A DNA stretch of 15,522 nucleotides from assembly GCA_021789355.1 (NCBI GenBank), contig JAJYJR010000064.1:1-15522 (forward strand). Direction: 5' to 3'. The DNA comes from Chloroflexota bacterium (GTDB lineage Bacteria; Chloroflexota; Limnocylindria; Limnocylindrales; CSP1-4). The notes below the pieces were generated by a model. It was not told the DNA's origin. It saw only the letters and a list, made by a program, of their open reading frames with translations, and ran no database searches. Positions 2,144 to 15,522 of the stretch are shown one piece after another (the stretch's first letter is position 1; each line of letters opens with the position of its first letter). Both the position numbers and the translations under genes were made by a program.

Positions 2144-3676
2144 TCAGCCCGCCGGCTCAGCCTGCCCGGTCGGCTCCGCGTCCGGTGATCGGGCCGAGGC
2201 CGGCGACTCGAGGATCCAGCCGAAGCGGGCGCGGGCGACACGCGCGCGCTCCGGCGTCAGCACTGGCTCCGGGAAGCGGCCGCGCCACTCCCAGGGCCGC
2301 GTCGCGTCGATGATCGCCCGCGAGTTGAGCCCCCGAGCGTCGGGGTGCGCCGCCTGGTCAAGGGGCCCGGCCCACCCGCGCCGGACCAGGGCCGTGTCGC
2401 GCGCCGGGTCGGTACGCGTCGCGATCGCCCACCAGACTTCGCGCATGTCGTAGATGTCGATGTCGTCGTCCACGACGACCGTGTAGCGGCCGAGGTAGGC
2501 GACGCCACCGGCCTGGCTGGCGACGATCCCGGCCTGCGTCGCGTGGCCCGGGTAGGCCTGGCGGATCGCGACGACGACGAGCCCCCGATTCCCCGCCTCG
2601 GGCGGGATCCAGACACCGGTCACCTGGGGGACTCCCGCCCCCTCGAGCTGGCGCCGGACCACCGACGAGCGCAGGTAGGCGCCGAAGCGGTTGTCCTCGT
2701 GGGGCGGCTTGCCCTGAGGACAGCCGAGGATGATCGGGTCGTCCCGGTGGTAGATCCGCTCCACCGTGATCACCGGGGCGTCCATGACGCGCTCCGAGTA
2801 GTAGCCGTATGCCTCGCCGTAGGGTCCCTCCGGCCGCCGTTCGAGCGGATCGATGAAGCCCTCGATGGCGATCTCGGCGTGCGCCGGGATCGGCAGGCCG
2901 GTCACCTCGCCGCGGACGACCTCCACGGGCGCGCCGCGCACGGCCCCCGCCCAGCCGAACTCGCTCATCCCGTAGGCGGGCGCCTCCGAGCACGCGGCGA
3001 TGAAGAGGAGCGGGTCCGACCCGACGACGACCACGATCGGCACGCGCTGCCCGCGGTCGAAGTACCGCTCGCGGATGATCCGACCGTGCTTCCCCGGACT
3101 GATGTAGACACCCAGATGGTTCCGGTCGAACACCTGGTTGCGATACGTCCCCGCATTGACCCAATCGGAATCGGGGTCGCGGAGGATGTTGATGCTGGCG
3201 GTCCCGATATACCGCCCGCCGGCCCTCGGATGCCAGACCGGCGCGGGGAAACGGGTGAGATCCACGTCCTCGCCGCGCAGGACGTTCTGAAGGATCGGAC
3301 CATCCCCGACCTCACGAGGCGGCAGTGGCTGGAGTCGACGCAGGGTCTCGGACCAGAAATGGAGCAGCGATTCGTGCGAGACGGTCGCGGGATCGAGCCC
3401 CAGCGTGATGGCCTGGCGCGCCAGGGACCCGTTGCAGTTGACGACCACCCGGCCACCGGGGAAGCCCGGGATCTCGTCGAAGAGGACACAGGGAGCCCGA
3501 TCCGCGTGATCCAGCATCTCCGCGATCGCGCCGATCTCGGCCTCGGACGATGCGCCCTGGACGGACCGGAACTCGCGCTCGGGCAGCTCCGCCCGAACCA
3601 GGTCGAGCCACTCGCGCAGGCTCGCGTACCCCGCGGTTCGTCGCTCCCCGACTTGGCTGTGCCCTCCGGCAGTCAT
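2144..3676 (-). CDS. UbiD-family prenylated-FMN-dependent (de)carboxylase
   Basis: This 510-residue protein belongs to the UbiD superfamily, which reversibly decarboxylates aromatic, heteroaromatic or alpha,beta-unsaturated acids with prenylated FMN and a divalent/K+ metal site. The catalytic Glu-Arg-Glu set appears complete: Arg179 in VNAGTYRNQ, and Glu283 and Glu288 in EGPYGE (spacing 5, as in Fdc1). Other family landmarks are RYIGTASINILRD, YISPGKHGRII and GYYSERVMDAPVITV. The ATG at 3676 is preceded by GGGAGACGGGAGC, a good ribosome-binding site; the frame is open further upstream but runs into the divergent coxG gene. No UbiX flavin prenyltransferase gene is in the window, so the cofactor must be made elsewhere. 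The substrate is unknown; the neighbours suggest a heteroaromatic carboxylate (inference). Confidence 0.93.
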   Translation of the reverse strand: MTAGGHSQVGERRTAGYASLREWLDLVRAELPEREFRSVQGASSEAEIGAIAEMLDHADRAPCVLFDEIPGFPGGRVVVNCNGSLARQAITLGLDPATVSHESLLHFWSETLRRLQPLPPREVGDGPILQNVLRGEDVDLTRFPAPVWHPRAGGRYIGTASINILRDPDSDWVNAGTYRNQVFDRNHLGVYISPGKHGRIIRERYFDRGQRVPIVVVVGSDPLLFIAACSEAPAYGMSEFGWAGAVRGAPVEVVRGEVTGLPIPAHAEIAIEGFIDPLERRPEGPYGEAYGYYSERVMDAPVITVERIYHRDDPIILGCPQGKPPHEDNRFGAYLRSSVVRRQLEGAGVPQVTGVWIPPEAGNRGLVVVAIRQAYPGHATQAGIVASQAGGVAYLGRYTVVVDDDIDIYDMREVWWAIATRTDPARDTALVRRGWAGPLDQAAHPDARGLNSRAIIDATRPWEWRGRFPEPVLTPERARVARARFGWILESPASARSPDAEPTGQAEPAG

Positions 3677-3723
3677 GCTCCCGTCTCCCGGACGCGGCGC
3701 CCCGAATGCCGCCGTTCTCGCCA

Positions 3724-3753
3724 AGGATAGCTGCGGTACACTGCGGTATGCAA
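3724..3753 (-). promoter_or_regulatory. Candidate leftward promoter of the UbiD gene
   Basis: Read leftward, TTGCAT (3753-3748) can serve as -35 and TATCCT (3729-3724) as -10, separated by 18 bp, followed by about 40 bp to the start of the UbiD gene. The -35 lies exactly inside the shared operator-like element. This assignment rests only on hexamer similarity. Confidence 0.4.
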
Positions 3754-3757
3754 CGCC
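3735..3757 (+). promoter_or_regulatory. Operator-like element, site 1 (ubiD/coxG divergent region)
   Basis: The element contains GGTACACTGC directly followed by GGTATGCAAC, two related 10-bp units one helical turn apart. It carries the core GTATGCAA (3746-3753) that recurs at sites 3 and 4. It overlaps the -35-like hexamer of the leftward UbiD promoter and a -10-like TACACT (3737-3742) facing coxG, so a bound protein could control both genes. Binding by the window's GntR regulator is inferred from recurrence at 12022-12044 next to that regulator's own start. Confidence 0.55.
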
Positions 3758-3772
3758 CGGAGGAGTGAACCG

Positions 3773-4252
3773 ATGATCGTCGACCAGCAGAGCGTGATCC
3801 CCGTGCCGGCAGACCGCGCGTGGGCATTCATCGCGGACATCCCCTCCATCAGCACGTGCCTCCCCGGGGTCGAGGAGTTCGCACCGGCCGGCGAGGACGC
3901 GTACGCCGGGGCGCTGCGGGTGAAGGTCGGGCCGATCGCGGTACGCCTCCAGGGCCGGCTCCGCGTCGTGGAGCGCGACGACGAGCACCGGACATCGCAC
4001 CTCGAGCTCCAGGCCACCGAACGACGCATCAACAGCACGGTCAACGCCCGCGTCACGCTGACGCTGGCGCCCCTCCCGGGTGACGCGACCGAGCTGCACG
4101 TCCACACGGAGGCCTCGATCCTGGGGAAGCTCGGCGAGTTCGGCCAGGCCGTCATGCGGCGCAAGGCGGACCAGATCATGGCCGAGTTCGTGGCGAACAT
4201 GGCGCGCAAGATCTCGGCGTCGACGGAGGGGGCGAGCGGGTCCGGTTCCTGA
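3773..4252 (+). CDS. coxG: CoxG-like SRPBCC-fold protein (first copy)
   Basis: This 159-residue protein belongs to the CoxG (carbon monoxide dehydrogenase subunit G) branch of the SRPBCC/START-like fold. CoxG proteins accompany molybdenum hydroxylases; in Oligotropha CoxG anchors the enzyme to the membrane. The N-terminal pattern VPADRAWAFIADIPSISTCLPGVEEF and the late helix KLGEFGQAVMRRKADQIMAE are characteristic. The usual C-terminal hydrophobic anchor is absent: the protein ends in a short Ser/Gly tail. A strong ribosome-binding site GGAGG (3759-3763) lies 9 nt before the ATG. The gene diverges from the UbiD gene and shares operator site 1 with it. Its exact job here (enzyme assembly, substrate handling or docking) is not known. 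Confidence 0.85.
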   Translation: MIVDQQSVIPVPADRAWAFIADIPSISTCLPGVEEFAPAGEDAYAGALRVKVGPIAVRLQGRLRVVERDDEHRTSHLELQATERRINSTVNARVTLTLAPLPGDATELHVHTEASILGKLGEFGQAVMRRKADQIMAEFVANMARKISASTEGASGSGS

Positions 4253-4265
4253 CCGGCGGGCGCGG

Positions 4266-4293
4266 GCCGACGCGGCGGCATCGTCGCCTCGGC
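4266..4293. terminator. Possible bidirectional hairpin
   Basis: Between the convergent coxG and luciferase-like genes, GCCGA (4266-4270) pairs with TCGGC (4289-4293), and GGCG pairs with CGCC inside it after a 3-nt bulge. This gives about 9 bp of stem with a 7-nt loop. There is no U-tract on either strand, so this is only a candidate. Confidence 0.3.
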
Positions 4294-4302
4294 GTCCACC
4301 CT

Positions 4303-5193
4303 TCAGCCGAACGCCGGGAGGACGTGCGTCGCCAGCGCCTCGACCTGGGCCAGCGACGGCACCTGCGGGAAGAGGACCAGCTCATCCAACCCGAGCGGCT
4401 CGTGCCGCCCGACCCACTCAGCGATCGCCGCGGCCGACCCGTGCTTCACCAGCTCCTCGGGGGGTCGCGCGGTTCCCTTCGGGTAGTAGCGCGCCGTCTG
4501 GCGCACCGCCTCGTCGAGCTCATTGCGGCCGCCCACGGCGACATACGCGATCCGTCCGATCGTGAACTGCGACTTGCCGTACTCCGCGGCCCAGGCGCGC
4601 ACCCGCTCGACCACCGGCCCGATCGCCTCCGGCTCCGGCGCGGCACCGATGAGGAAGCCGTCGCCGAGCTTCACCGCCCGCCGGACGCCCGCCTCGTTGG
4701 TGGGCACGGCCCCGATGAGGATCGCGGGTCCGGGGAGCTGCACGGGTGCCGGCCCCACCGGGCCGAAGTCCCGCGTCGTCGAGGCGTGCGCCTCCGCCCA
4801 GACCTCCCGGATCCGGCCCAGCTGGGCGCGGAACCGGCCCACGCGGTGGGCCATCGACACCCCGTACACCGCGTAGTCCTCGGCCCGCCCGCCCAGCCCT
4901 ACGCCGAGCACGAAACGCCCGCCGGACAGCCGATCGATCACGGCCGCCTGCTTGGCGACCATCGTCGCGTCGCGGATCGGCAGCTGCAGGATCGTCGTCG
5001 CGAGCCGCGCGCGGGTCGTCACCGTCGCGACGGCGGCGAGGCAGGCCAGCGGATCCCACATGTCGTAGTCGGGGTGGTCGAGGGTCGCGAGGGTGTGGAA
5101 GCCGGCCTCGTCGCCGAGGCGGGCCCAATCGAGAAGGAGCTGCCGATCCAGCCCGTGCGGCAGCGCGTTGGGCAGCCCGAGTCCCAGCTTCAT
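4303..5193 (-). CDS. Luciferase-like (LLM class) flavin/F420-dependent oxidoreductase
   Basis: This 296-residue TIM-barrel protein belongs to the bacterial luciferase-like superfamily, which uses FMN or F420 for monooxygenation or hydride transfer. Visible marks are the N-terminal KLGLGLPN strand, DEAGFHTLATLDHP, and the signature SGGRFVLGVGLGG at about residues 90-102. The ATG at 5193 begins the conserved first strand and follows GAGCGGAG; the frame is open for 32 further codons upstream, but these overlap the previous gene. The gene lies 11 nt after the asparaginase-like stop and is the last of the six-gene leftward operon. FMN versus F420 cannot be decided from sequence alone. A ring-oxygenating or ring-reducing role in a heterocycle pathway is inference from context. 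Confidence 0.85.
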   Translation of the reverse strand: MKLGLGLPNALPHGLDRQLLLDWARLGDEAGFHTLATLDHPDYDMWDPLACLAAVATVTTRARLATTILQLPIRDATMVAKQAAVIDRLSGGRFVLGVGLGGRAEDYAVYGVSMAHRVGRFRAQLGRIREVWAEAHASTTRDFGPVGPAPVQLPGPAILIGAVPTNEAGVRRAVKLGDGFLIGAAPEPEAIGPVVERVRAWAAEYGKSQFTIGRIAYVAVGGRNELDEAVRQTARYYPKGTARPPEELVKHGSAAAIAEWVGRHEPLGLDELVLFPQVPSLAQVEALATHVLPAFG

Positions 5194-5204
5194 CTCCGCT
5201 CGCC

Positions 5205-6206
5205 TCAGTACGTGTCGAAGATGCGCTGGACCTCGTCCGGGTCGGATGTCCGGGCGAGGGCGAGCCGCAGGAGGATCCGTGCCTTCCACGGCTGCAGGTT
5301 GTCGCAGGCGACCCAGCCCTTCCGCCGAAGCCCCGGGCTGCGCACCACGCGGCCCGACCCGACTCGCGTTCCCTGGCAGATCAGCACCCCGGCGTCGTGG
5401 GCTCGGTCCAGGGCGGCCATCTCGCCCGGCGTGGGCCGCCCCGCCCCGGTGCCGGCACTGATGAGGGCGCGGGCGCCGGCGGCCACCGAGGCGTCGATCA
5501 TGGTGCCGTCGGCGCCCAGGTACGAGACGACCAGGTCGACGCGCGGCAGTTCCTGCAGGGCGTCGACTTGGAACTCGGTGGCGAGAGTGTGCGGGCGGTA
5601 CGGGCGGTGGTAGTAGACGACCCGGCCGTCCGCGTCGGCATAGCCCAGCGGCCCCAGGTCCCGGCCCTGGAAGGTCTCGACCCGGTAGGTGGCCGTCTTG
5701 GTGACGTCGCGCGCGCCGTGAATCGCGTCGTTCAGGACCACGAGGACGCCCATGCCGGAGGAGGCGGGGTCCGCCGCCACCCGTACGCCGTTGAGGAGGT
5801 TGAGGTAGCCGTCCGCGCTGATCGCCGATGAGGGGCGCATCGCTCCCACAACGACGACGGGGCGGTCGGTTTTGAGGGCGAGATGGAGCAAGTACGCCGT
5901 CTCCTCCAGCGTGTTCGTGCCGTGGGTGATGACGACCCCGTCCGCGCGGTCGGCCTCGAAAAGGCCGTGGATCGCCCGCACCAGGTCGAGGAGGTCGGCG
6001 TCGGTGATGGCCTGGCTCGGGAGCCGCCGGAACGGGACCTCCTCCACGTCCGCGACCGACCCGAGCTCCGGCACGCGGCCGACGAGCTCGCCGTCGTCGA
6101 GCCGCTTGCCCGCCTCGAGGTACCAGGCCAGGTCCAGGCGGTCCACGCCGACCGAGTCGATCGTGCCGCCGGTGAAGATCAGCGCTACGCGCTTCCGCCG
6201 CTCCAT
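5205..6206 (-). CDS. Asparaginase/glutaminase-fold amidohydrolase
   Basis: This 333-residue protein aligns along its length with L-asparaginases (AnsA/AnsB family). The first catalytic motif FTGGTID (Thr12 nucleophile), the substrate-site LPSQ (about 62-65), GAMRPSSAISADG (121-133) and the catalytic Lys170 in DVTKT are present. The second motif reads ITHGTNTLEETA: Thr97 is kept, but the Asp that normally follows (Asp90 of E. coli AnsB) is Asn98. No signal peptide is visible, so it should be cytoplasmic. A perfect AGGAGG ribosome-binding site lies upstream. It sits in an operon with a Mo hydroxylase rather than with amino-acid genes, so an amide intermediate of ring cleavage is a plausible substrate (inference). 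Plain asparaginase activity remains possible. Confidence 0.85.
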   Translation of the reverse strand: MERRKRVALIFTGGTIDSVGVDRLDLAWYLEAGKRLDDGELVGRVPELGSVADVEEVPFRRLPSQAITDADLLDLVRAIHGLFEADRADGVVITHGTNTLEETAYLLHLALKTDRPVVVVGAMRPSSAISADGYLNLLNGVRVAADPASSGMGVLVVLNDAIHGARDVTKTATYRVETFQGRDLGPLGYADADGRVVYYHRPYRPHTLATEFQVDALQELPRVDLVVSYLGADGTMIDASVAAGARALISAGTGAGRPTPGEMAALDRAHDAGVLICQGTRVGSGRVVRSPGLRRKGWVACDNLQPWKARILLRLALARTSDPDEVQRIFDTY

Positions 6207-6249
6207 GGTGCCGCTCCCTCCTGGGTGTCCTTTCGCGCAGGTCGAGCGA

Positions 6250-6723
6250 TCAGCTCGAAGCCGCCGTCCCGGCCAGGGAACGGACCGCCGCGATGACCGC
6301 GGAGTACGTGCCGCAGCGGCACAGGTTCCCGCTCAGGTAGTCCCGGATCGCGGCCTCGGACGGCGCGGGATCCTCGGCGAGCAGCGCCTCCGTGGCCATG
6401 ATCATGCCGGGGGTGCAGTAGCCGCACTGGAACGCCTGCTGCTCCAGGAACGCGCGCTGCACGCGATCGAGCTCCCCATCAGAGGCGAGTCCCTCGACGG
6501 TCGCCACGGCGTGCCCCTCGACGTTCGTCGCGAGGGTCAGGCACGAACTCACCGGACGGCCGTCCAGGAGCACGGTGCAGGACCCGCAGACGCCGACCCC
6601 GCATCCCTCGCCTGCGCCGTGCAGCCCGAGATCGTCGCGCAGCAGCTCCAGGAGGGTCTGGTTCGCCTTGATCGCGATCTCGCGGGAGCGGCCGTTGACC
6701 TTCGTCACGATGACCCGCTTCAC
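6250..6723 (-). CDS. Molybdenum hydroxylase [2Fe-2S] (small) subunit (set B)
   Basis: This 157-residue protein has two [2Fe-2S] domains. The ligands are Cys41, Cys46, Cys49 and Cys61 (CGVGVCGSCTVLLDG then SSC), and Cys100, Cys103, Cys135 and Cys137 (FQCGYCTPG and NLCRCGTY). The last motif is CRCGTY rather than the more common CRCTGY seen in set A; both cysteines are kept. It starts with GTG at 6723, overlapping the large-subunit stop by 4 nt (GTGA). It would relay electrons from the Mo centre to the FAD subunit. A 43-nt gap separates it from the asparaginase-like gene downstream. Confidence 0.95.
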   Translation of the reverse strand: MKRVIVTKVNGRSREIAIKANQTLLELLRDDLGLHGAGEGCGVGVCGSCTVLLDGRPVSSCLTLATNVEGHAVATVEGLASDGELDRVQRAFLEQQAFQCGYCTPGMIMATEALLAEDPAPSEAAIRDYLSGNLCRCGTYSAVIAAVRSLAGTAASS

Positions 6724-9038
6724 CTCGCCGCCTCTTTCTCGATCGCCTCGAGCACCCGCTCCGGCCGGAGCGGCAGGTCACGCAGCCGGACTCCACCGAG
6801 AGCATTGGTCACGGCGTTGCCGATCGCCGGCGCGACGGGCCCCAGGGCGGCCTCGCCGAGCCCCTTGGCCCCGTACGGTCCGTCCGGGTGGGGCGTCTCG
6901 ACCACCCGCGACTCGAACGTGTCGGGGAAGTCCTCCATGGACGGCAGCATGTAGTCGAGGAACGTGGCGTTCACCGGCTGGCCGTTGTCGAAGACCATCT
7001 CCTCGAAGAGCGCCGAGCCGAGGGCGGTCAGCATCGAGCCCTCGTTCTGGAGCCAGCACTGGCGGGGATTGATGGCCTTTCCGCCGTCGACCACGCTCAC
7101 CGCCCGAACGACCCGGACCTTCCCGGTACGCCGGTCCACCGCGACCTCGGCGGCGGCTGCGGAGAGGAACCAGAAGGCGGATGCGCGACCCTTGCCCGTC
7201 TCGGGATCGAGCCCGCCCGTCGTCTGGTAGTCGAAGGTGCCGAAGAGCGAGCCGACAGCCGTCCCGAACCGGGCCGTGAAGGCCTCCGGGATCGTCATCG
7301 AGCGGCCCGGCACTCCCCGGACGCGGCCCACCCCCTCGACGATCTCCAGGTCGGCGGCAGCCACCTCGAGCCGATCCGAGACGATCCCCAGCAGCTCCGC
7401 CCGGATCTGCAGGGCGGCCTGGCGGGCGGCGTGGCCCATGCTGAAGACCGTCCGACTCGAGCTCGTGGACTGATCGTAGGGGGTCGTGTCGGTGTCCGGG
7501 AAGGTCACCCGCACCCGCCCCGGAGGCAACCCGAGCGTCTCCGCCACGATCTGTCCGAGCGAGGTGTGGGCCCCCTGGCCGATCTCGACGCTGCTCGTCA
7601 TCAGGGTCGCCGAGCCGTCGGCGTTCATCCGCACCGACGCCGCCGAGTTGGACGGGGTCATCGTGCTCTTGATCATCGCGGCGATGCCGAGTCCGTGGAC
7701 CACGTCGGGGTCTTCGGTCACGATCGGACGCGTGGACTCGAGCCCACGCCAGCCGATGGCCGCCGCCGCCTGCTCCAGGCAGGCAGCGAGCCCGACGGCC
7801 ACGAGACGGTCGCCGGTGACGAACAGGTCGCCCTCGCGCACGACGTTGCGGAGGCGCATCTCCACGGGGTCCAGCCCGAGGCGGCGCGCGATGTCGTCCA
7901 TCTGGCTCTCGTAGGCCCAGCAGACCTGCGGGACGCCGAAGCCGCGGAAGGCACCGGCCGGCGGCTTGTTGGTGTAGACGCAGTGGGACGTGAGGTGCTG
8001 ATGCTCGATCCGATACGGTCCCCCGGAGACGTATCCGCCGTTCTTCGCCGTCCGGGGCCCGATGTCCGCGTATGCCCCCGTGTCGTACACGGTCTCGACC
8101 CTGCGCGCGACGAGCGTTCCGTCCTGTCGGGCTCCGGTCCGGATCCGGACGACCGCCGGGTGGCGCACCGCGGTCAGGAACACCTCCTCCCGGGTCAGGG
8201 CGAGCGCGACCGGCCGCTGCGCCTTCCGGGAGAGCGCCGCGACCAGCGGCTCGAGCTTCGGGTAGGTCTTCGCGCCGTAGCCTCCCCCGACGTAGGGCAC
8301 CACCACCCGGACACCGCTCTCCGGCAGCCCGAAGATCTCGGCCAGCTGCGTCCGGATCACGGAGGGGTTCTGCGTCGAGGTCTGGACCACGAGTCGCCCG
8401 TCCGGCTCCCACCACGCAATCGACGCGTGCGGCTCCATGTGGCCGTGCTGGATCATCGGCACCGTGTAGACGTCCTCGAAGACCGCGGCCGCGGCGGCGA
8501 AGCCGGCCTCGACGTCGCCCTGTTCCACGTGGTAGACGCTGCACACGTTGCTGTCGGGCACGAAATGCACCGCTGCCAAGTCGATGAATGCCACGTCCGG
8601 CGTGCGGCGCGCCGCGTGGATCACGGGCGCCGACGGAGAGATCGCCTCGAGGGGATCGTTCACGGCCGGGAGCGGCTCGTACTCGACGTCGATCAGGTCG
8701 AGCGCCTCTTCCGCGATGTCCCGCTCCTCCGCGGCCACGGCCGCGACGACGTCCCCCACGTACCGGACGACGTCGATCGCGACGATGGGCTGGTCGCGGA
8801 CCACCGGGCCGTAGTACGGGTCCATCCCCGCCAGGTCGTCCCGGGTCAGCGTCACGACTCCGAGCTCTCGCTCGGCCCGGCTGGCGTCGATGCGCACGAG
8901 CCGCGCGTGCGGGAGCGAACTCCGCAGCACCTTGGCGTGCAGCGTTCCCGGCAGCACCAGGTCGGCCGTGTACTGCGCGGCGCCCGTGACCTTCGCCGGG
9001 CCGTCCACGCGCGGCGCGTCGATTCCGATGACCGTCAC
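6720..9038 (-). CDS. Xanthine dehydrogenase-family molybdopterin-binding (large) subunit (set B)
   Basis: This complete 772-residue Mo-cofactor subunit contains an aldehyde oxidase/xanthine dehydrogenase a/b hammerhead domain (about residues 15-130) followed by the Mo-binding domain. Landmarks are QHGHMEP (198-204), the cofactor loop GGGYGAK (251-257), AFRGFG (363-368), EIGQG (485-489) and the catalytic KGLGE with Glu729. The loop AFRGFG replaces the AYRCSFR signature of form I CO dehydrogenase, so this is not a canonical CO dehydrogenase and more likely hydroxylates an organic (hetero)cycle. The GTG at 9038 was chosen because of the GTGA overlap with the FAD gene, a GAGGAGGAG ribosome-binding site and the typical IGIDAPRVDGPAKVTGAAQY N-terminus. 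The frame stays open upstream only as a shadow of the FAD gene. Confidence 0.95.
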   Translation of the reverse strand: MTVIGIDAPRVDGPAKVTGAAQYTADLVLPGTLHAKVLRSSLPHARLVRIDASRAERELGVVTLTRDDLAGMDPYYGPVVRDQPIVAIDVVRYVGDVVAAVAAEERDIAEEALDLIDVEYEPLPAVNDPLEAISPSAPVIHAARRTPDVAFIDLAAVHFVPDSNVCSVYHVEQGDVEAGFAAAAAVFEDVYTVPMIQHGHMEPHASIAWWEPDGRLVVQTSTQNPSVIRTQLAEIFGLPESGVRVVVPYVGGGYGAKTYPKLEPLVAALSRKAQRPVALALTREEVFLTAVRHPAVVRIRTGARQDGTLVARRVETVYDTGAYADIGPRTAKNGGYVSGGPYRIEHQHLTSHCVYTNKPPAGAFRGFGVPQVCWAYESQMDDIARRLGLDPVEMRLRNVVREGDLFVTGDRLVAVGLAACLEQAAAAIGWRGLESTRPIVTEDPDVVHGLGIAAMIKSTMTPSNSAASVRMNADGSATLMTSSVEIGQGAHTSLGQIVAETLGLPPGRVRVTFPDTDTTPYDQSTSSSRTVFSMGHAARQAALQIRAELLGIVSDRLEVAAADLEIVEGVGRVRGVPGRSMTIPEAFTARFGTAVGSLFGTFDYQTTGGLDPETGKGRASAFWFLSAAAAEVAVDRRTGKVRVVRAVSVVDGGKAINPRQCWLQNEGSMLTALGSALFEEMVFDNGQPVNATFLDYMLPSMEDFPDTFESRVVETPHPDGPYGAKGLGEAALGPVAPAIGNAVTNALGGVRLRDLPLRPERVLEAIEKEAAR

Positions 9039-9898
9039 GCCACACTCCTCCTCGCCAGGCTCGCGGCGAGCGCGCGCTCGGCCAGAACCGCCGCGACGCG
9101 ACGCTTGTAGGCCGCAGAGCCGCGGATGTCGTCGATCGGATCGAGGGCGGCGGCGACCGCCGCGGCCATCTCCCCGAAGACCTCGGGACCGGGCCGGCTG
9201 CCGCGGACGAGCTCTTCCGCGGCGGTCACGCGGACCGGCGTCGCCGCCACTGCCCCAACCACGAGCCTGGCGTCGACGCAGCTGTCGCCCTCCACGCGCA
9301 GGCGGGCCGTCACGCCGGCGCATGGGCGATCCTCGCTCGAGCGTGTCGTGAACTTCAGGTAGGCCTCCGTCCAACCCGGCTCCGCCGGCGGAAGGCGGAC
9401 GGCCGAGATCAGCTCGCCGGATTCGAGCGCGTTCTCGTAGCCCCCGAGAAGGAAGTCGGCGAGCTCCATCTCGCGTTCGCCGGCGACCCCCGCGATCACC
9501 ACGCGCGCGTCGAGAGCGACGAGCGCCCCAGGCGGGTCGGACTGGTAGTCGCCGTGGGCCAGATTGCCTCCGACGGTGGCCATGTTCCGGATCCGCACGT
9601 TGGCGACCGTGTGACACGCCTCGGCGAAGGCCGGGTAGCGCCGTCGGACCAGTTCGCTCCGTTCGATCTCGCCGATCGTCGTGAGCGCCCCGATCCGCAG
9701 CCAGCCGTCCTCGAGGACGACCGAAGCGGCGCCGTCGATCTTGCGCAGGTTCACGAGCGTCGTCGGGACGAAGACGCCGTGCTTGATCAGGATGAGCAGC
9801 GCAGTCCCGCCGCTGATCGCCTTCGCGGTCGGATCGTCGGCCAGGCAGGCGCACGCCTCGGCGACCGTCCGGGGCTCGACGAGTTCGAAACGCCGCAT
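9035..9898 (-). CDS. Molybdenum hydroxylase FAD-binding (medium) subunit (set B)
   Basis: This 287-residue flavoprotein subunit carries SGGTALL (29-35) and TVGGNLAHGDYQSDPPG (about 108-124), the two FAD-binding loops, and a C-terminal CO-dehydrogenase flavoprotein domain ending in DIRGSAAYKRRVAAVLAERAL. The ATG at 9898 follows GAGGAGG by 7 nt and lies 2 nt after the CoxG-like gene. Its stop overlaps the large-subunit GTG by 4 nt. It differs clearly from the set A subunit, so the two sets are not recent duplicates. Confidence 0.94.
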   Translation of the reverse strand: MRRFELVEPRTVAEACACLADDPTAKAISGGTALLILIKHGVFVPTTLVNLRKIDGAASVVLEDGWLRIGALTTIGEIERSELVRRRYPAFAEACHTVANVRIRNMATVGGNLAHGDYQSDPPGALVALDARVVIAGVAGEREMELADFLLGGYENALESGELISAVRLPPAEPGWTEAYLKFTTRSSEDRPCAGVTARLRVEGDSCVDARLVVGAVAATPVRVTAAEELVRGSRPGPEVFGEMAAAVAAALDPIDDIRGSAAYKRRVAAVLAERALAASLARRSVA

Positions 9899-9900
9899 CG

Positions 9901-10404
9901 TCAGGCCTCCTCGCGGCTGGCCGGCGCGAGGCTGGTGTTGGCACGCCGCGCGAACTCGGCCTCGACCTCGCGCGTCTTGCGCTGGATGACAGCGAACCCC
10001 AGGCTCCCGAGACGCCCGAAGACGCTCAGGTCGTGGCGGTAGCTCAGGTTGGTGGCCTTGTCGCCGGCGCTCGAGAGCGTCACGACCGAGTCGATCCGGA
10101 CGTTGCTCCTGAGGCGACGGTCCTCGCCCGTGCCGTGGAGCCGAAGCCGGCTGGGCGGATCGGTCTCGAGGACGTCGAGGCGGACGTCGAACGAGGCCTT
10201 CAGGAATCCGACGCTCTGTTCGAGGTGCGCCCGGTACGTCCCGTCGTCGAGTTGCTCGGCCCGCGTGCAACCCGGGACCCAGCTGGCCAGCGTCGGAATG
10301 TCCCAGATGGCCTCCCAGACCCGGGCCTGCGGCGCATCGATGGTGAAGCTGCCCTCGATGATCATCCCGGAGCCGCGCCTCCGCCTCGTCCGGCCGCCCG
10401 ACAT
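9901..10404 (-). CDS. coxG: CoxG-like SRPBCC-fold protein (second copy)
   Basis: This is a second CoxG-type protein, 167 residues from the start given. The family core begins at IIEGSFTIDAPQARVWEAIWDIPTLASWVPGCTRAEQL and closes with the GRLGSLGFAVIQRKTREVEAEF helix, which resembles the first copy. There is no C-terminal membrane segment. Two starts are possible. The ATG at 10404 has a good GGAGG site but adds an Arg-rich MSGGRTRRRRGSG extension. The ATG at 10365 gives the normal family N-terminus but has a weak site. The gene heads the six-gene operon, 2 nt before the FAD subunit, as expected for a protein that serves the set B hydroxylase. Confidence 0.85.
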   Translation of the reverse strand: MSGGRTRRRRGSGMIIEGSFTIDAPQARVWEAIWDIPTLASWVPGCTRAEQLDDGTYRAHLEQSVGFLKASFDVRLDVLETDPPSRLRLHGTGEDRRLRSNVRIDSVVTLSSAGDKATNLSYRHDLSVFGRLGSLGFAVIQRKTREVEAEFARRANTSLAPASREEA

Positions 10405-10420
10405 CCCGGGCCTCCAGCAT

Positions 10421-10443
10421 CCAATTGTACACTACTGCATAGC
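10421..10443 (-). promoter_or_regulatory. Operator-like element, site 2 (six-gene operon)
   Basis: Read on the minus strand, this 23-bp stretch aligns without gaps to sites 1, 3 and 4. It has GTGTACAAT where they have GTATGCAA(T/C), so it is the most divergent copy. It contains TACAAT (10429-10424), a good -10 hexamer, which would start transcription near 10417, just before the CoxG-like gene. It is AT-rich against very GC-rich surroundings. Confidence 0.4.
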
Positions 10444-10472
10444 ACATGGGCTGGGGTTCACCTCCTTCCGGT

Positions 10473-10499
10473 GCGGCGCACCCGCGGCGCACCCGCGGC
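10473..10499 (+). repeat. 11-bp tandem repeat
   Basis: The unit GCGGCGCACCC occurs twice in tandem (10473-10483 and 10484-10494), followed by a 5-nt partial copy. It lies between the CBS/BON gene and the six-gene operon and has no assigned role. Confidence 0.5.
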
Positions 10500-10576
10500 C
10501 GGGCGGCCCGACGAGCGCAGTCGGACGACGTGGCGGCCGACGGAGGGAGCCCGGGGACCGTGAAGGTCGCCGGAGG

Positions 10577-11230
10577 TCAGTTGGCGGTCGGGCGCGGCTC
10601 CGGCCAGGCGACGGCCTTGTCGTCGACGCCGATGATCCCGTCGATCTGCTCGATCAGGACCCGGATCGTCGGGACGAGCGCCGCATGGGCGACCGTGCCG
10701 GAGAGCACGACGATCCCGTTTCGGACCCCGACGACCTGGAGGCCATCCACGGCGCGGACCGTGGCGCGCACGATGTCGTCGAGTTCCGCGTCGCTCCGCG
10801 CGTACGCGCGCACGATGTCCGCCCGAGTCACGATCCCGACCAGCCGACCGTTCTCGAGCACGGGCAGACGGTTGATGCTCGAGCCTGCCATCAGCGCGGC
10901 CGCTTCCCGCAGCGGTCGGTCGGCGGAGATCGTGACGGCCGGCGCCGTCATCGCCTCGCCGGCCGTGGTCGCATGGACGTGAGACTCCGGCCGCGGGGAG
11001 TCCCTGAGATCGCCCACGAGCCGACGCAGGGAAGATCGGCGCGCCGGACGCTCGCCCGCCTCCTTCGCGACGAAGTCGGCTTCCGAGACGACCCCCAGGA
11101 GTTCCCGCGCGGTGCTGACGACCGGGACGCCGCTGATGCGATGCTCGACGAGCAGCCGCGCGACCTGCTTGAGGGGTGTGCTCGGCAGCACGGTGAGCAC
11201 ATCGGTTGTCATCGCGTCGCGAACGTACAT
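10577..11230 (-). CDS. CBS-CBS-BON domain protein
   Basis: This 217-residue soluble protein has two CBS modules, which usually bind adenine nucleotides: about residues 7-57 (DAMTTDVLTVLPSTPL ... GVVSEADFV) and 93-143 (EAMTAPAVTISADRPL ... GIVTRADIV). A C-terminal BON domain follows (about 147-208: DDIVRATVRAVDGLQVVGVRNGIVVLSGTV). BON domains are proposed to bind phospholipid or other surfaces. The architecture is common in soil bacteria as a stand-alone sensor-like protein, and no enzyme domain is present. A GGAGG site lies 7 nt before the ATG. It sits 47 nt after the GntR gene on the same strand, so co-transcription is likely. A link to the catabolic pathway is inferred from position only. 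Confidence 0.88.
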   Translation of the reverse strand: MYVRDAMTTDVLTVLPSTPLKQVARLLVEHRISGVPVVSTARELLGVVSEADFVAKEAGERPARRSSLRRLVGDLRDSPRPESHVHATTAGEAMTAPAVTISADRPLREAAALMAGSSINRLPVLENGRLVGIVTRADIVRAYARSDAELDDIVRATVRAVDGLQVVGVRNGIVVLSGTVAHAALVPTIRVLIEQIDGIIGVDDKAVAWPEPRPTAN

Positions 11231-11277
11231 CGCAGCACCTCCGGAAGCGGAGCGGCCCCGGATCGCGCCGGCGGCAG

Positions 11278-11982
11278 TCAGCTGAGTACGCTCTCCGCGT
11301 ATTCGCGCAACTGGAGGCGCACGAGGTACTCCCGGGCGGCGGCGAGATGGGAACGCGAGGCCGCCTCTGCGGCGTCCGGGTCGCTTCGCTCGAGCGCGTC
11401 GATGATGGCGCGGTGCTCAGCGAGCACATCCTCGACCCGCTCGGGGCTCGCGAACGGAAGGGTCGAGTAACGCAGGACGTAGTCCCGGAGGTCCCGTGCG
11501 ATCCGTTCGAGGGCGTCGATCCCCGCCGCTTCGTAGATGACATCGTGGAACCGGGTATTCGCCGCCATAACCTGCTGTCGACGGCCGTTCTGGACTCCCT
11601 CGCTCATCGAATCGATGATGACGCGCAGGCGACCCAACTCCGAGGACGTGATACGGCGCGCAGCGAGCCGCGCGGCGAGGCCGTCGAGGACCTCGCGGAT
11701 CACGAACATGTCCTCGATCTCCGAGGCCTTTGGCCGCGGCACGACCATTCCGCGCCCCGGGTCGGCGACGAGGAGATTCTCGGCCTCGAGGCGCTTCAAT
11801 GCTTCACGGACCGGCGTCCGGCTCACGCCGTAGCGTGCCGCCACGGCAAGCTCGACCACCCGGGTATCGGGTTCGAGCGTACCGGAGAGGATCTCCTCCT
11901 TCAGGGCTCGATACACGTGCTCGCTGCTGGGGAGGCCATCGGGACGCTCGGTAGTCTTGGTGGGCACTGGACTTCCTGTCAC
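11278..11982 (-). CDS. GntR-family transcriptional regulator, FadR/FCD subfamily
   Basis: This 234-residue regulator has an N-terminal winged helix (about 20-85) with the GntR signature RYGVSRTPVREALKRLEAENL. A helical FCD ligand-binding domain follows (about 90-220). Its metal/ligand ligands probably include His146 (NTRFHD), His190 (AEHRAI) and His212 (SHLAAA). FCD regulators usually bind small carboxylates and repress nearby catabolic genes. It starts with GTG at 11982; a second GTG five codons in has a slightly better-spaced AGGA site. Its promoter region carries operator-like site 3, which suggests autoregulation. It is the only transcription factor in the window and the obvious candidate for controlling the flanking operons. 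Confidence 0.92.
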   Translation of the reverse strand: MTGSPVPTKTTERPDGLPSSEHVYRALKEEILSGTLEPDTRVVELAVAARYGVSRTPVREALKRLEAENLLVADPGRGMVVPRPKASEIEDMFVIREVLDGLAARLAARRITSSELGRLRVIIDSMSEGVQNGRRQQVMAANTRFHDVIYEAAGIDALERIARDLRDYVLRYSTLPFASPERVEDVLAEHRAIIDALERSDPDAAEAASRSHLAAAREYLVRLQLREYAESVLS

Positions 11983-12021
11983 TTGTCCTTGGGCCGATGC
12001 CTGTTCTCAGATCGGCACCAC

Positions 12022-12053
12022 AGTATAACGCCGTATGCAATTGCACTGTACAG
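12022..12053. promoter_or_regulatory. Operator-like element, site 3 (GntR promoter)
   Basis: The 23-bp element (12022-12044) carries AGTATAACGC followed by CGTATGCAAT, with core GTATGCAA at 12033-12040. It runs into two perfect palindromes, TGCAATTGCA (12036-12045) and CTGTACAG (12046-12053). On the minus strand TATACT (12027-12022) is a near-consensus -10, which would start transcription about 33 nt before the GntR GTG. Binding here would give autoregulation. Confidence 0.6.
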
Positions 12054-12122
12054 CCGGCGACGAGGGCTGGCGGCACCTGCCGAGTCCGTCGGCGCAGGGC
12101 ACGGGGCCAAGCCCGCGGTCGC

Positions 12123-13175
12123 TCATGCCGATTCGGCTGCTTCCGCCCGTCCGCCCGCCGGGAACCCCGGAGAGGGCGCGTGGCCGGCCCATGCCTTGGC
12201 GACGGCAGCAGGCGGCTCGTAGCGGGCGACGCGGCTGATGAGCCGCCGGATCCGCAGCCCCTCCAGCGGACCGAGGACGTAGCCCGGCATCCGGGTGAGC
12301 CATACGGCGCTGCCCAGGCTCACGGCGTCCGCGCCGGCCCAGAGGTACTCCCGGCAGTCGTCGAATGTCCGGATCCCGCCGGTGGCGATGATCGGCAGGC
12401 GGACACCGGCGTCGCGAAGCTCGGCCACCACGCGCAGGCCAATCGGCTTGATCGCCCGTCCCGAGAGGCTCCCGAACCGGTTCTTCATCCACGGCTCGCC
12501 CGTCGCCGGGTCGAGACGCAGCGCCTTGACCGCATTCGTTGCCGTGATCGCCGCGACTCCGTGTCGCTCGGCGAGGCGCGCCTGGGCGATGTAGTCCTCG
12601 TCGGGCGAGACCTTGAGGATCACCGGGTGCCGGCTGAGGGGCACGGCCTCCCGCAGAATCCCCTCGAGGATCGTCTCGAAGGGGAAGTTCACGTTGTGGC
12701 ACGATACGTTCAGCTCGACGGCCGCGATCTGCCCGGGTCGCGCCCGTTCGTTGACGACCTCGATCAGCCGGACGACATCCTCCAGCGAGAAGCCGCCGAG
12801 CGAGACGATCCGGTTCAGGTGGTGCGTCCGGGGGAAGTACTCCTCGAAATATGCCTCGATCCCGATGTTGCACCAGCCGAACGCGTTGAGCCAGCCGCCG
12901 TCGACCGGCCGGAGGGCCCGTCCGTAGAGCCGAAGCATCGTGGGCAGCTCTGTCAGGCTCCAGTCCTCCCGGAGGGTGAAGTGCCCCTCCCGAGGTTCGA
13001 CCGTGAGAGTCCGCGTCGTCACCGCCCCGAACCGCTCGAGCGGCACCCACTGCGCGATCGGGCTCATGCCGTAGAGGATCAACCGGCGCCTGGACGCGCC
13101 GTATCCGAGCAGGCTCGCCGAGGTCAGCAGGCGGTTCCGAAGGCGGATCCCGTTGAGGTCGACCGTGCCACTCAT
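12123..13175 (-). CDS. Dihydroorotate dehydrogenase-like FMN oxidoreductase
   Basis: This 350-residue FMN TIM-barrel of the class 1 dihydroorotate/dihydropyrimidine dehydrogenase family catalyses ring C=C reduction or its reverse. Marks in order are NAFGWCNIGIEAYFEE (97-112), the active-site motif NVSCHN with Cys159 (canonical NxSCPN), Lys188 in VILKVSP, TATNAVK (211-217), FGSLSGRAIKPIGLR (234-248), ATGGI (264-268) and ADAVSLGSA (282-290). The catalytic-Cys position is kept, but the adjacent Pro is His160, so the substrate may not be dihydroorotate. No pyr genes or PyrK partner are nearby. The ATG overlaps the upstream stop by one base (TGATG), so it is coupled to the split-barrel protein. 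A role in reducing a hydroxylated ring is inferred. Confidence 0.85.
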   Translation of the reverse strand: MSGTVDLNGIRLRNRLLTSASLLGYGASRRRLILYGMSPIAQWVPLERFGAVTTRTLTVEPREGHFTLREDWSLTELPTMLRLYGRALRPVDGGWLNAFGWCNIGIEAYFEEYFPRTHHLNRIVSLGGFSLEDVVRLIEVVNERARPGQIAAVELNVSCHNVNFPFETILEGILREAVPLSRHPVILKVSPDEDYIAQARLAERHGVAAITATNAVKALRLDPATGEPWMKNRFGSLSGRAIKPIGLRVVAELRDAGVRLPIIATGGIRTFDDCREYLWAGADAVSLGSAVWLTRMPGYVLGPLEGLRIRRLISRVARYEPPAAVAKAWAGHAPSPGFPAGGRAEAAESA

Positions 13176-13654
13176 CACTGCCTCGCCGACGCGCGCAGGG
13201 CCGCACGCTGCTCGCGCCACCGGGCGAGGACGCGCTCCTCGTCCGGGAGGTCGAACGTCATGCCGCTTGTCAGGCGGGCATAGGAGACCTCGTCGCGCCG
13301 GACCTCGAGGACGCGCGCGTCGAAGACGGCGACCGCGTGATCGCCGACGCGAACGTCGGACGCGCGATCGGTCGAGACGCGCACCGCGAAGGCTGCGCCG
13401 TCCCACACGAAGACGAGGGTGGCCCGTCCTGACCGCGTCAGGTTCGCCGTCGAGTGCGTGCCGGTCCAGAGAGCCAGGCGGAGTCGCTGGGGGCCCGTCG
13501 CGAGCACCTCCCCCGCGCTGAGGAGACACGAGCGCGGCCACCCGTCGTCGTCCGCGGTCAGGACCTGGATGACCAGGCCGACGCCGTCCTCGAGCTGCTC
13601 TCCGGCGAGCAGCCCAATAAGGTCGGCGGGCAGGTCAGTGCCGGATGCGGTCAT
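13175..13654 (-). CDS. Flavin split-barrel (pyridoxamine 5'-phosphate oxidase-like) protein
   Basis: This 159-residue protein looks like a PNPOx/flavin-reductase-type split barrel. The segment LWTGTHSTANLTRSGRATLVFV (about 62-83) is typical of the flavin-phosphate-contacting strands. Its short length suggests a small FMN-, F420- or heme-binding enzyme, perhaps a flavin reductase or partner for the DHOD-like enzyme whose gene overlaps its stop by one base. No clear Shine-Dalgarno sequence precedes the ATG at 13654. A TAGGAT hexamer (13698-13693, minus strand) could be a -10 about 32 nt upstream of the start. The assignment rests on fold-level resemblance only; the cofactor and substrate are unknown. 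Confidence 0.6.
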   Translation of the reverse strand: MTASGTDLPADLIGLLAGEQLEDGVGLVIQVLTADDDGWPRSCLLSAGEVLATGPQRLRLALWTGTHSTANLTRSGRATLVFVWDGAAFAVRVSTDRASDVRVGDHAVAVFDARVLEVRRDEVSYARLTSGMTFDLPDEERVLARWREQRAALRASARQ

Positions 13655-13850
13655 CGAAAAAGCGGTCGAATGCAGCGGCGCACATCCGCCCGATCCTACC
13701 CCACCGGGGGTCGCCCCGTGAGCACCTCGCCGGCTGGATCGGCGGGCCGGCTGAGGACGGCTCCGTCCGGCCGCGCGGAGCCCGGCCGGCGGCGGCGGTC
13801 CAGCGTCGATTCGCGGGCGGCGGTTCGCGGTGGCGGGCATCGTCGCGGCC

Positions 13851-13900
13851 CCGCCCGGACCTGCGCAGCCCCGTCCGGACCCGCCCGGACCTGCCCGGAC
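13851..13900 (+). repeat. 10-bp GC-rich tandem repeat
   Basis: There are five consecutive 10-bp units of the type CCGCCCGGAC. Units 1 and 4 are identical, units 3 and 5 differ by one base, and unit 2 is degenerate. No CRISPR or iteron context is present. Confidence 0.5.
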
Positions 13901-13996
13901 GAGGAGCGGAGGCCGGCGACCGCTCCCGGTTGTGGGCGCCAGGACGGGGCACCGTCTCGTCGTGGGGAACGTTACCTGCCCGGTGGCTAGCCACCA

Positions 13997-14019
13997 GATA
14001 TTGCATACTGGAATATGCG
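13997..14019 (-). promoter_or_regulatory. Operator-like element, site 4 (importer upstream region)
   Basis: On the minus strand the element contains the core GTATGCAAT and the inverted repeat GCATA-N6-TATGC (arms at 14014-14018 and 14003-14007). It lies about 95 bp upstream of the substrate-binding lipoprotein gene. It is AT-rich within a GC-rich gap and aligns without gaps to the other three sites. Confidence 0.55.
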
Positions 14020-14113
14020 AACGCACACGGCCAATCGATGGTCACCCCGACACAAGCCGCAGACAGGCGACCGATTCCGGATCGTGCTGTCTAGGGTCAT
14101 GAGGAGAGCGTTC

Positions 14114-15217
14114 ATGGACGTACTGCTCAGCAAGCAGAAGGCCCCGCTCGTGGTCGTTCTCGCGATCGCGATCGTTGCGGGCGGGTGCTCATCCGGTAGT
14201 TCGCCATCGGCCAGCGCCGCGCCCTCGGTGGCCGCGTCGATCGACCCGACCGCGTCCTATCCGTCGAAGTCGGGCAGCCTGCCGAGCGTCACGTTCGCGC
14301 AGTCGGTGCCCCAGCTGTCCTTCGCGCCGTTCGAGATCGCCCAGAACATGAACTTCTTCGGGTACGAGGGCGTGAAGCTGCAGTTCATCCAGCTCCAGAG
14401 TGGGGCCACGTCGCTCCAGGCGATGGAGAGCGGCAGCATCGACCTGGTCGACTCCGCATCGACGGAGGTGGCGACGGCTGCTGCCAAGGGCCTCGACTTC
14501 GAGGCGATCGAGAACACGATCATGATGACCCTGCAGTTCTGCGTGTCGAAGGACTGGGCGCAGCAGCACAAAGTGACGGCCAGCTCCACGATCCAGCAGA
14601 AGATGGCGGCCATGAAGGGCGCGACGATCGGCATCACCGGCCCCGGCGCCGTCTCCGACACCGCGACCCGCTATCTCCTCAAGAAGTACGGCAACCTGAA
14701 CCCCGACACGGATACCAGGATCATCCAGGTGGGCGGTGCCGCCGCGATCCCCGGCGCGCTCGACGCCGGGCAGATCCAGGGCTTCCTGCTCTCCCCGCCT
14801 GCCTGCGGCCAGACCAAGAACGGAATGGTCCTGGTGGATCCCTCGCAGCTGCCAGAGTTCCAGAACTACACGCACGAGGTGGTCTACGGCTCGAAGAAGT
14901 GGCTGACCGCCAACAAGGACCTGGCCACAAAGGTCGCGACCGCCGTCGCGATGGGCAACAACTTCATCCTGAAGTACCCGGCCGCGGCCCTGGCTCTGCT
15001 CGAGAAGGACTTCCCGAAGGTCGCCCCGAGCGTCGTCGAGACCTCCTTCAATGACACGATCAAGCCGCAGATCAAGCCCGACGGCAAGTTCGACGCCTCC
15101 ATGTGGCAGAACACGATGCAGGTGTTCGCCGACATGGGAATCGTGAAGCAGGCCCTCGACACGAGCGAGGGCGGGGTCTGGACCAACGCGTACATCGGGG
15201 ACGCCAGCGTCCGCTGA
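14114..15217 (+). CDS. ABC importer substrate-binding lipoprotein (NMT1/SsuA/ThiY-like)
   Basis: This 367-residue extracytoplasmic solute-binding protein has a short charged N-terminus (MDVLLSKQK), a hydrophobic core PLVVVLAIAI and a lipobox ending at Cys25 (VAGGC). A Ser/Ala/Pro-rich linker follows, then a type II periplasmic-binding fold related to NMT1/SsuA/TauA proteins (FAQSVPQLSFAPFEIAQNMNF; LQAMESGSIDLVDSAS; IGITGPGAVSDT). These proteins deliver small organic ligands such as pyrimidine precursors, sulfonates or aromatic acids to an ABC permease. The ATG at 14114 was chosen because GAGGAG lies 7 nt upstream and it gives a compact signal peptide; an ATG at 14099 is an alternative with a weaker site. 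Operator-like site 4 lies upstream, and an ABC ATPase gene follows. The ligand is unknown, but a link to the adjacent catabolic genes is likely. Confidence 0.9.
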   Translation: MDVLLSKQKAPLVVVLAIAIVAGGCSSGSSPSASAAPSVAASIDPTASYPSKSGSLPSVTFAQSVPQLSFAPFEIAQNMNFFGYEGVKLQFIQLQSGATSLQAMESGSIDLVDSASTEVATAAAKGLDFEAIENTIMMTLQFCVSKDWAQQHKVTASSTIQQKMAAMKGATIGITGPGAVSDTATRYLLKKYGNLNPDTDTRIIQVGGAAAIPGALDAGQIQGFLLSPPACGQTKNGMVLVDPSQLPEFQNYTHEVVYGSKKWLTANKDLATKVATAVAMGNNFILKYPAAALALLEKDFPKVAPSVVETSFNDTIKPQIKPDGKFDASMWQNTMQVFADMGIVKQALDTSEGGVWTNAYIGDASVR

Positions 15218-15300
15218 GCGTGCTCGTCAGCGTGGCCGGCGCCGAGGCCCTGCCGCAGCGCGGGGCCCCGGTCGTCCCCGTCCGGCCGCCGTCGCGCGTC

Positions 15301-15319
15301 GGAGCGGCGGGCCCGCTCC
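15301..15319 (+). terminator. Hairpin between importer genes
   Basis: GGAGCGG and CCGCTCC form a 7-bp stem around CGGGC. A perfect palindrome CGGGGCCCCG (15261-15270) lies just upstream. There is no U-tract, so the role could be partial termination or 3' mRNA protection after the binding-protein gene. Confidence 0.3.
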
Positions 15320-15404
15320 CGAGGTGGCCGGTCGCCCTTGAGACTCTCGGACGGCGCCCGTGCTAGGCTCCCGGGACCTTCCGCCCGCTCTGCGTCCGGA
15401 GACC

Positions 15405-15522
15405 ATGGCCATCGCGGCTGACCCGGAGACGGTGATCGAGTACGACGGGGTCACCAAGCGCTTCCGCAGCGGCAGCGCGCTCGTGACCGCGCTCGAGGAT
15501 GTCTCGCTGTCGGTCCGACGCC
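15405..15522 (+). CDS. ABC transporter ATP-binding protein, N-terminal fragment
   Basis: The window ends after 39 codons of this gene. The visible part, VIEYDGVTKRFRSGSALVTALEDVSLSV, is the first beta-strand region of an ABC ATPase of the SsuB/TauB/NrtD type. The Walker A motif would follow just beyond the edge. The ATG at 15405 has GGAG only 3 nt upstream; an in-frame GTG at 15360 is an alternative start. A TGCTAGGCT extended -10-like element (15361-15369) could give the gene its own promoter. It follows the binding-protein gene and would energise the same importer. Confidence 0.85.
   Translation, partial: MAIAADPETVIEYDGVTKRFRSGSALVTALEDVSLSVRR

Follow-up and report, generated by a model that had tools for sequence, protein, structure and literature searches.

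Results

Four intergenic sites around a GntR-type regulator gene

We analyzed a 15,522-base stretch of DNA from a Chloroflexota bacterium (the window; 71% GC) that encodes a GntR-type transcriptional regulator with an FCD domain. It lies among genes for a xanthine-dehydrogenase-family enzyme, a UbiD-family decarboxylase, CoxG-like proteins and an ATP-binding cassette (ABC) importer (Table 1). Four regions of the window carry a similar short element, which an earlier note on this DNA had read as the operators of a GntR regulon. The gapless alignment given there was re-derived from the sequence of site 1 (3735-3757(+), GGTACACTGCGGTATGCAACGCC), site 2 (10421-10443(-), GCTATGCAGTAGTGTACAATTGG), site 3 (12022-12044(+), AGTATAACGCCGTATGCAATTGC) and site 4 (13997-14019(-), CGCATATTCCAGTATGCAATATC), together with its invariant columns A4, G12, T13, T15, C17, A18 and A19. 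The core GTATGCAA is exact in three of the four sites, as claimed, and a search of the window allowing at most one mismatch gave three matches, all exact, and none further (1.47 expected). Site 4 is additionally near-palindromic (GCATA-N6-TATGC). A perfect 14-bp palindrome, GGTGGCTAGCCACC, directly adjoins it at 13982-13995.

Two other statements of the earlier note stand in part. All four sites are intergenic under the gene calls made here, and for site 4 this depends on the start chosen for the importer gene: the site is intergenic with the start at 14114 and not with the first in-frame ATG, at 14015. The description of all sites as AT-rich is inexact because site 1 is 61% GC; it holds for the other three, which are 39-44% GC vs 71% for the window. 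About 20 bp separate the ends of sites 1 and 2 from the start codons of coxG1 and coxG2, respectively. Site 3 is some 54 bp upstream of the GTG start codon of gntR (11967), and site 4 about 93 bp upstream of the importer gene. By eye, all four overlap -10-like hexamers (TACACT, TACAAT, TATACT and CATACT). A reading of the sites as a known RNA element was dropped because an Rfam scan of the window found no family reaching its gathering score.

The shared motif exceeds chance

The motif is shared by the four sites far beyond chance. The tests were run on the four regions where the earlier note had found sites, and the choice of regions is therefore not independent. An unbiased motif search with one site per region recovered the earlier register at widths of 10, 16 and 19. 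With a width of 23 the search favored these four sites aligned in reverse (136.1 vs 131.7), with site 1 placed by its other box. At width 19 the motif score was 123.7, which was reached by none of 300 dinucleotide shuffles (mean 97.3, maximum 106.7) and by none of 600 shuffles made inside 20-bp blocks, which keep the local AT content (maximum 111.3). At width 10 the observed score of 77.2 was nearly equalled by the block-shuffle maximum of 76.3. An 8-mer with at least five A/T, a limit fixed after the site was seen, was common to three of the four regions in 0 of 2000 dinucleotide shuffles, and some 8-mer of any composition was common to three regions in 609 of 2000.

Each site could also be recovered from the others. 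When left out of a 20-bp model, sites 1-4 ranked 4, 7, 5 and 4 among 31,006 positions on both strands, and the only places outranking them were training sites or overlaps of these. The held-out score of site 2 was 9.0 bits vs 17.1 to 20.1 for the other sites, and with the 10-bp core alone the ranks were 4, 9, 4 and 1. Site 2 is thus the least secure of the four. A matrix trained on all four sites gave them 25.1-28.5 bits, and the best place in the window that neither overlaps nor adjoins a site, at 6106 in coding DNA, had 6.8 bits. The five other intergenic gaps of the window have no motif; their best score was -0.8 bits, at 15218-15405 (rank 152 of 31,006).

The core box fits a published operator type

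Each site contains a 10-bp box, xxGTRTRCAA, in which G3, T4, T6 and C8 are invariant across the four cores; G3 and C8 are columns G12 and C17 of the alignment. Operators of the FCD type are short 10-bp (pseudo)palindromes of the form NyGTNxACNy, with G and C at positions 3 and 8. Strict AC is found in the core of site 2 only, and the other three have GC. Two papers describe related operators. One gives a FadR-subfamily consensus, TKGT/ACMA with 2-nt spacing (PMC4494728), of which TTGTATACAA is our own instance and one of five strings tried against the window. The four core boxes match TTGTATACAA at 7 or 8 of 10 positions, and with up to three mismatches it occurs at seven places in the window, four of which are the sites (2.6 expected from 30 shuffles). 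For TGGTATACCA, also with up to three mismatches, there were 20 matches vs 11.5 expected, and only two were sites.

The other paper describes Atu1419 of Agrobacterium fabrum, an FCD regulator of the VanR group that binds the 10-bp operator ATGTATACAT; its Arg45 reads G3, and altering G3 and C8 abolishes binding (PMC7797058). These two essential positions are invariant in all four window cores. The earlier suggestion that the sites are short operators of the FCD type is thus supported, since the published 10-bp operator type fits all four. Among the papers searched, none combined TTGTATACAA or GTATGCAA with GntR, and none treated Limnocylindrales together with GntR. To judge by the opening of the abstracts, TTGCATAC and GntR came together only in work on other subjects.

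A weaker box lies 10 bp upstream

All four sites carry a second box, weaker than the core and exactly 10 bp upstream of it, with 5, 6, 5 and 5 of 10 matches. Its score at this offset was reached in 3 of 20,000 shuffles, in 1 of 2000 over 32 offsets, and in 56 of 20,000 when site 2 was left out, in a test that is not fully independent because the earlier 23-bp alignment already spanned that stretch. Weaker additional boxes 7-12 nt from the center are reported for many GntR-family sites (PMC4494728). The "23-bp element" of the earlier note is real as a set of sites, and a 10-bp pseudo-palindrome accompanied by a weaker upstream box at 10 bp describes it better than a single 23-bp palindrome does.

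The regulator

The protein has an N-terminal winged helix-turn-helix and a C-terminal FCD domain, with Pfam scores of 68.3 bits for GntR (cut-off 27) and 103.7 bits for FCD (cut-off 24.3). Among 7999 proteins scored, 2516 were homologs at E <= 0.001, and the 120 of these that were listed are 62-73% identical, the window itself aside. One of the 120 comes from a metagenome-assembled genome of Candidatus Limnocylindrales, a Chloroflexota order known mainly from metagenomes; the window probably belongs to this group as well. The solved chains that the regulator matches, by alignment only, include 3ihu, 3c7j, 4p9f and 6z74, the last of which we take to be Atu1419. Structures 3ihu, 3c7j and 4p9f are named as VanR members in PMC7797058. 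The VanR group is set apart from the FadR group by an effector domain that lacks the additional helix and the domain swap. The DNA-contact residues of Atu1419, Arg31, Glu34, Ser44, Arg45, Thr46 and Arg49 (PMC7797058; the residues of chain 6z74_A at these numbers agree), align with Arg36, Glu39, Ser49, Arg50, Thr51 and Arg54 of the window regulator. All six are invariant in 25 of 25 proteins (the window regulator and 24 chosen from the 120 listed of 2516). Asn137, His141, His185 and His207 are likewise invariant in the 25 aligned proteins, and the alignment suggests that they correspond to the metal ligands of Atu1419. The part of the regulator that aligns begins at residue 14 of 229, which leaves about 13 residues before it and no long N-terminal extension like that of NanR. 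A scan covering part of the window's reading frames found no second DNA-binding protein.

Boxes beside distant FCD relatives

We examined at least 80 loci whose FCD proteins are 28-39% identical to the regulator. These relatives were found by patterns including the helix VSRTPVRE, their gntR starts were extrapolated, and GTATGCAA played no part in choosing the loci. In 15 of 80 loci, the 250 bp before gntR contain a box that matches TTGTATACAA at 9 or more of its 10 positions (1 of 400 shuffles); for other open reading frames of these loci, the figure was 23 of 1576 upstream regions. The consensus with 3-nt spacing, TNGTNNNACNA, is not enriched before the relatives' gntR, unlike TTGTATACAA. 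Eight of the 80 loci have GTATGCAA no more than 250 bp from an end of gntR. In these flanks it is 22 times denser than elsewhere, and it ranks first of 1680 composition-matched 8-mers beside the relatives' gntR. Independent cases of GTATGCAA are few, because seven of these eight loci carry the same element downstream of gntR. This shared element, just 3' of gntR, is found in L022, L029, L032, L037, L054, L068 and L006 at about 10654-10689, in Methylobacterium, Bradyrhizobium and Pantoea loci. It reads GGTATGCAA(A/C)TTGCT, a few bases, then TTGTATAYC, TGCATACC or close variants, and is probably the operator of another FCD regulator.

Xanthine-dehydrogenase-family genes are present in 4 of 99 relative loci (L004, L065, L072 and L078). 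Boxes directly precede such an operon in L065 (TTGTATGCAA, at 17988) and L004 (TTGCATGCAA, at 16196), and in L072 TTGTATGCAA (4972) precedes an aldehyde dehydrogenase gene. Some boxes occur in pairs 21 bp apart (L004, 16196/16217; L065, 17988/18009 and 7041/7062; L072, 4972/4993), before xanthine-dehydrogenase-family operons in L004 and L065 and before aldehyde dehydrogenase genes in L065 and L072. Among ten loci that we picked, boxes with at least 8 matches were above expectation in L004, L065, L080 and L025, and not, or hardly, in L072, L078, L020, L074, L001 and L035. Searches for close relatives of the regulator gave nine remote loci, none and none in three scans of viral contigs. All of the ten matches listed from a plasmid collection (2032 records) were below 60% identity, no match in 31 genomes exceeded 43% identity at E <= 1e-20, and there was none in 148 genomes at E <= 1e-40.

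Gene content of the window

The window holds two separate gene sets of the cox/xanthine-dehydrogenase type within 10 kb, at 3-2039 (truncated by the window edge) and 6250-9904. A CoxG-like gene opens the second cox operon, and another CoxG-like gene diverges from ubiD. The window also encodes a CBS-domain protein, a dihydroorotate-dehydrogenase-like protein and a small protein whose similarity to PNPOx/DUF447 is below the cut-off. A gene for an ABC-transporter ATPase seems, by eye, to begin with an ATG at about 15406, after the intergenic stretch 15218-15405.

Table 1. Genes and candidate operator sites of the window
Feature	Position	Strand	Remarks
UbiD-family decarboxylase (ubiD)	2144..3676	-	site 1 upstream
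Operator site 1 (candidate)	3734..3753	+	weaker box 3734-3743; core 3744-3753 CGGTATGCAA; between divergent ubiD and coxG1
CoxG1, CoxG-like protein	3773..4252	+	site 1 upstream
Luciferase-like (LLM class) oxidoreductase	4303..5289	-	start unsettled; as listed overlaps the asparaginase frame
Asparaginase-family protein	5205..6206	-	
CoxS-like 2Fe-2S subunit	6250..6723	-	
CoxL/XdhA-like molybdopterin subunit	6720..9038	-	
CoxM-like FAD subunit of xanthine-dehydrogenase-family enzyme	9035..9904	-	start chosen within longer open frame 9035-10492
CoxG2, CoxG-like protein	9901..10404	-	first gene of the operon behind site 2
Operator site 2 (candidate)	10425..10444	-	core 10425-10434 TAGTGTACAA; upstream box 10435-10444 TGCTATGCAG; before coxG2 and operon; weakest
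GntR/FCD regulator (gntR)	11278..11967	-	229 aa; Pfam GntR and FCD; helix VSRTPVREAL; proposed repressor
Operator site 3 (candidate)	12021..12040	+	core 12031-12040 CCGTATGCAA; upstream of gntR
Operator site 4 (candidate)	14001..14020	-	core 14001-14010 CAGTATGCAA; before the importer's binding-protein gene
NMT1/SsuA-like substrate-binding protein of ABC importer	14114..15217	+	site 4 upstream; start chosen by us

Discussion

We conclude, with a probability of roughly 0.8, that the four sites serve as operators for the product of gntR (11278-11967(-)), a GntR/FCD regulator that would repress the neighboring genes and its own gene until it is released by a metabolite. The regulon proposed in the earlier note is supported by the match to an FCD operator type, by the kept contact residues and by the enrichment of boxes beside distant relatives. 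A small self-regulated switch is the most likely arrangement because the sites match each other and also the type of regulator encoded among them. Site 3 lies upstream of the regulator's own gene, as autoregulation would call for. Most likely, the regulon is a further case of a known type, the autoregulated FCD-GntR catabolic regulon.

We postulate that a dimer recognizes the 10-bp pseudo-palindrome xxGTRTRCAA, with Arg50 contacting the G and its counterpart C, and that the second box, one helical turn (10 bp) off, could help to hold the same or a neighboring dimer on the same face of the DNA. The bound protein would repress ubiD/coxG1, the coxG2-cox-asparaginase-luciferase operon, gntR and the importer gene. 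Repression is the most likely mode of action because the sites are near start codons and overlap -10-like hexamers. A metabolite, probably a carboxylate or another organic acid at the FCD metal site, would release the repressor.

Several observations weigh against this interpretation. With the core alone, site 2 ranks only ninth, below four coding positions and one more in the intergenic region where it lies, and a sigma-70-type promoter scan of 3600-14300 passed no promoter (0.2 expected). C8 is absent in two of the four upstream boxes and G3 in one, and the test of that box is, as noted, partly dependent on the earlier alignment. The relatives are distant, were picked by pattern and have extrapolated gntR starts; seven of the eight with GTATGCAA share one downstream element, and no box precedes the xanthine-dehydrogenase-family genes in L072 or L078. 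Among the relatives' 32 sites with at least 8 matches, the preferred offset of a second box is 21 bp, not 10, and the 10-bp spacing therefore looks local.

The two boxes, one helical turn apart, could be occupied by two adjacent dimers on one face of the DNA, or by one full dimer next to a half-bound one, giving cooperative repression without an N-terminal extension of the NanR type. We regard this as speculative and rather doubtful. If it were true, FCD regulators of uncultured Chloroflexota (probably Limnocylindrales) would have a distinct operator architecture, and a xanthine-dehydrogenase-family operon, a UbiD decarboxylase, CoxG-like proteins and an importer would be joined in one switch.

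Could the shared element instead be a general promoter element, for example a lineage-specific type of -10 or -35? All four sites precede genes and contain -10-like hexamers, as such an element would. However, relative to the downstream gene the motif is in forward orientation at site 1 (coxG1) and site 2 and reversed at sites 3 and 4, and by eye the hexamer stands in differing registers. The stretch before the next gene, 15218-15405, has no motif match, and distant FCD regulators from other phyla also show enrichment of this core beside their genes. We therefore consider a promoter element unlikely. It is about equally improbable that the sites serve another regulator encoded outside the window, such as an FCD paralogue, and that the local GntR protein acts elsewhere. 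FCD regulators have similar sites, and a genome may encode several of them (for example, four matches each in genomes G013 and G017), but one of the sites precedes the local gntR, as is usual in autoregulation, and no other DNA-binding protein was seen among those of the window's frames that were scanned.

Chance resemblance, boosted by picking the best alignment of AT-richer stretches, is the least probable of these explanations, and we give it very little weight. There are only four sites, picked by eye, and one is weak; many shuffles share some 8-mer among three regions, and the local shuffles at width 10 come close to the observed score. Nevertheless, neither set of width-19 shuffles reached the observed score, even when local AT content was kept, each held-out site was recovered by leave-one-out, and a consensus derived from the literature falls on the same places.

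If the four sites are operators of the local regulator, the operator sequence of a protein with 2516 homologs can be put to the test. They would also link the genes of the cluster into one regulon, and the ligand that releases the repressor would then hint at the substrate on which these genes act.

The proposed regulon can be compared with known FCD systems. The window regulator is like Atu1419 in being an FCD regulator with an SRTPVRE helix and a 10-bp box with the G3 and C8 that are essential there, and, by prediction, in repressing a catabolic pathway (PMC7797058). Likely counterparts of the metal-binding histidines of Atu1419 are invariant in the family of the window regulator. Two target genes of Atu1419 likewise have palindromes overlapping their -10, and its own gene has one between -10 and -35 (PMC7797058). 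In contrast to the operators of Atu1419, the window boxes are less symmetric, with the right half (GCAA or ACAA) kept and the left half degenerate, and they carry a second box 10 bp away, whereas the palindromes of Atu1419 are identical and 190 bp apart, and its tetramer can loop DNA (PMC7797058).

NanR of Escherichia coli is an FCD repressor that acts on (GGTATA)3 repeats (PMC8012715). Closely spaced, repeated GTAT-type boxes under an FCD-type repressor are common to NanR and the window, and cooperativity is plausible here. NanR has three short direct repeats, whereas the window sites have two boxes 10 bp apart, and NanR needs a 32-residue N-terminal extension for cooperativity (PMC8012715), compared with about 13 residues before the matched region in the window GntR protein. 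Lastly, FadR-subfamily sites with 2-nt GT/AC spacing, for example those of HpxS, HypR and PrpR, have the same AT-rich GT-N2-AC core, and in many groups a weaker extra box 7-12 nt from the center (PMC4494728). The likeness to these regulators is one of site pattern, and the window sites differ from theirs in that AC is replaced by GC in three of four, giving GTATGCAA.

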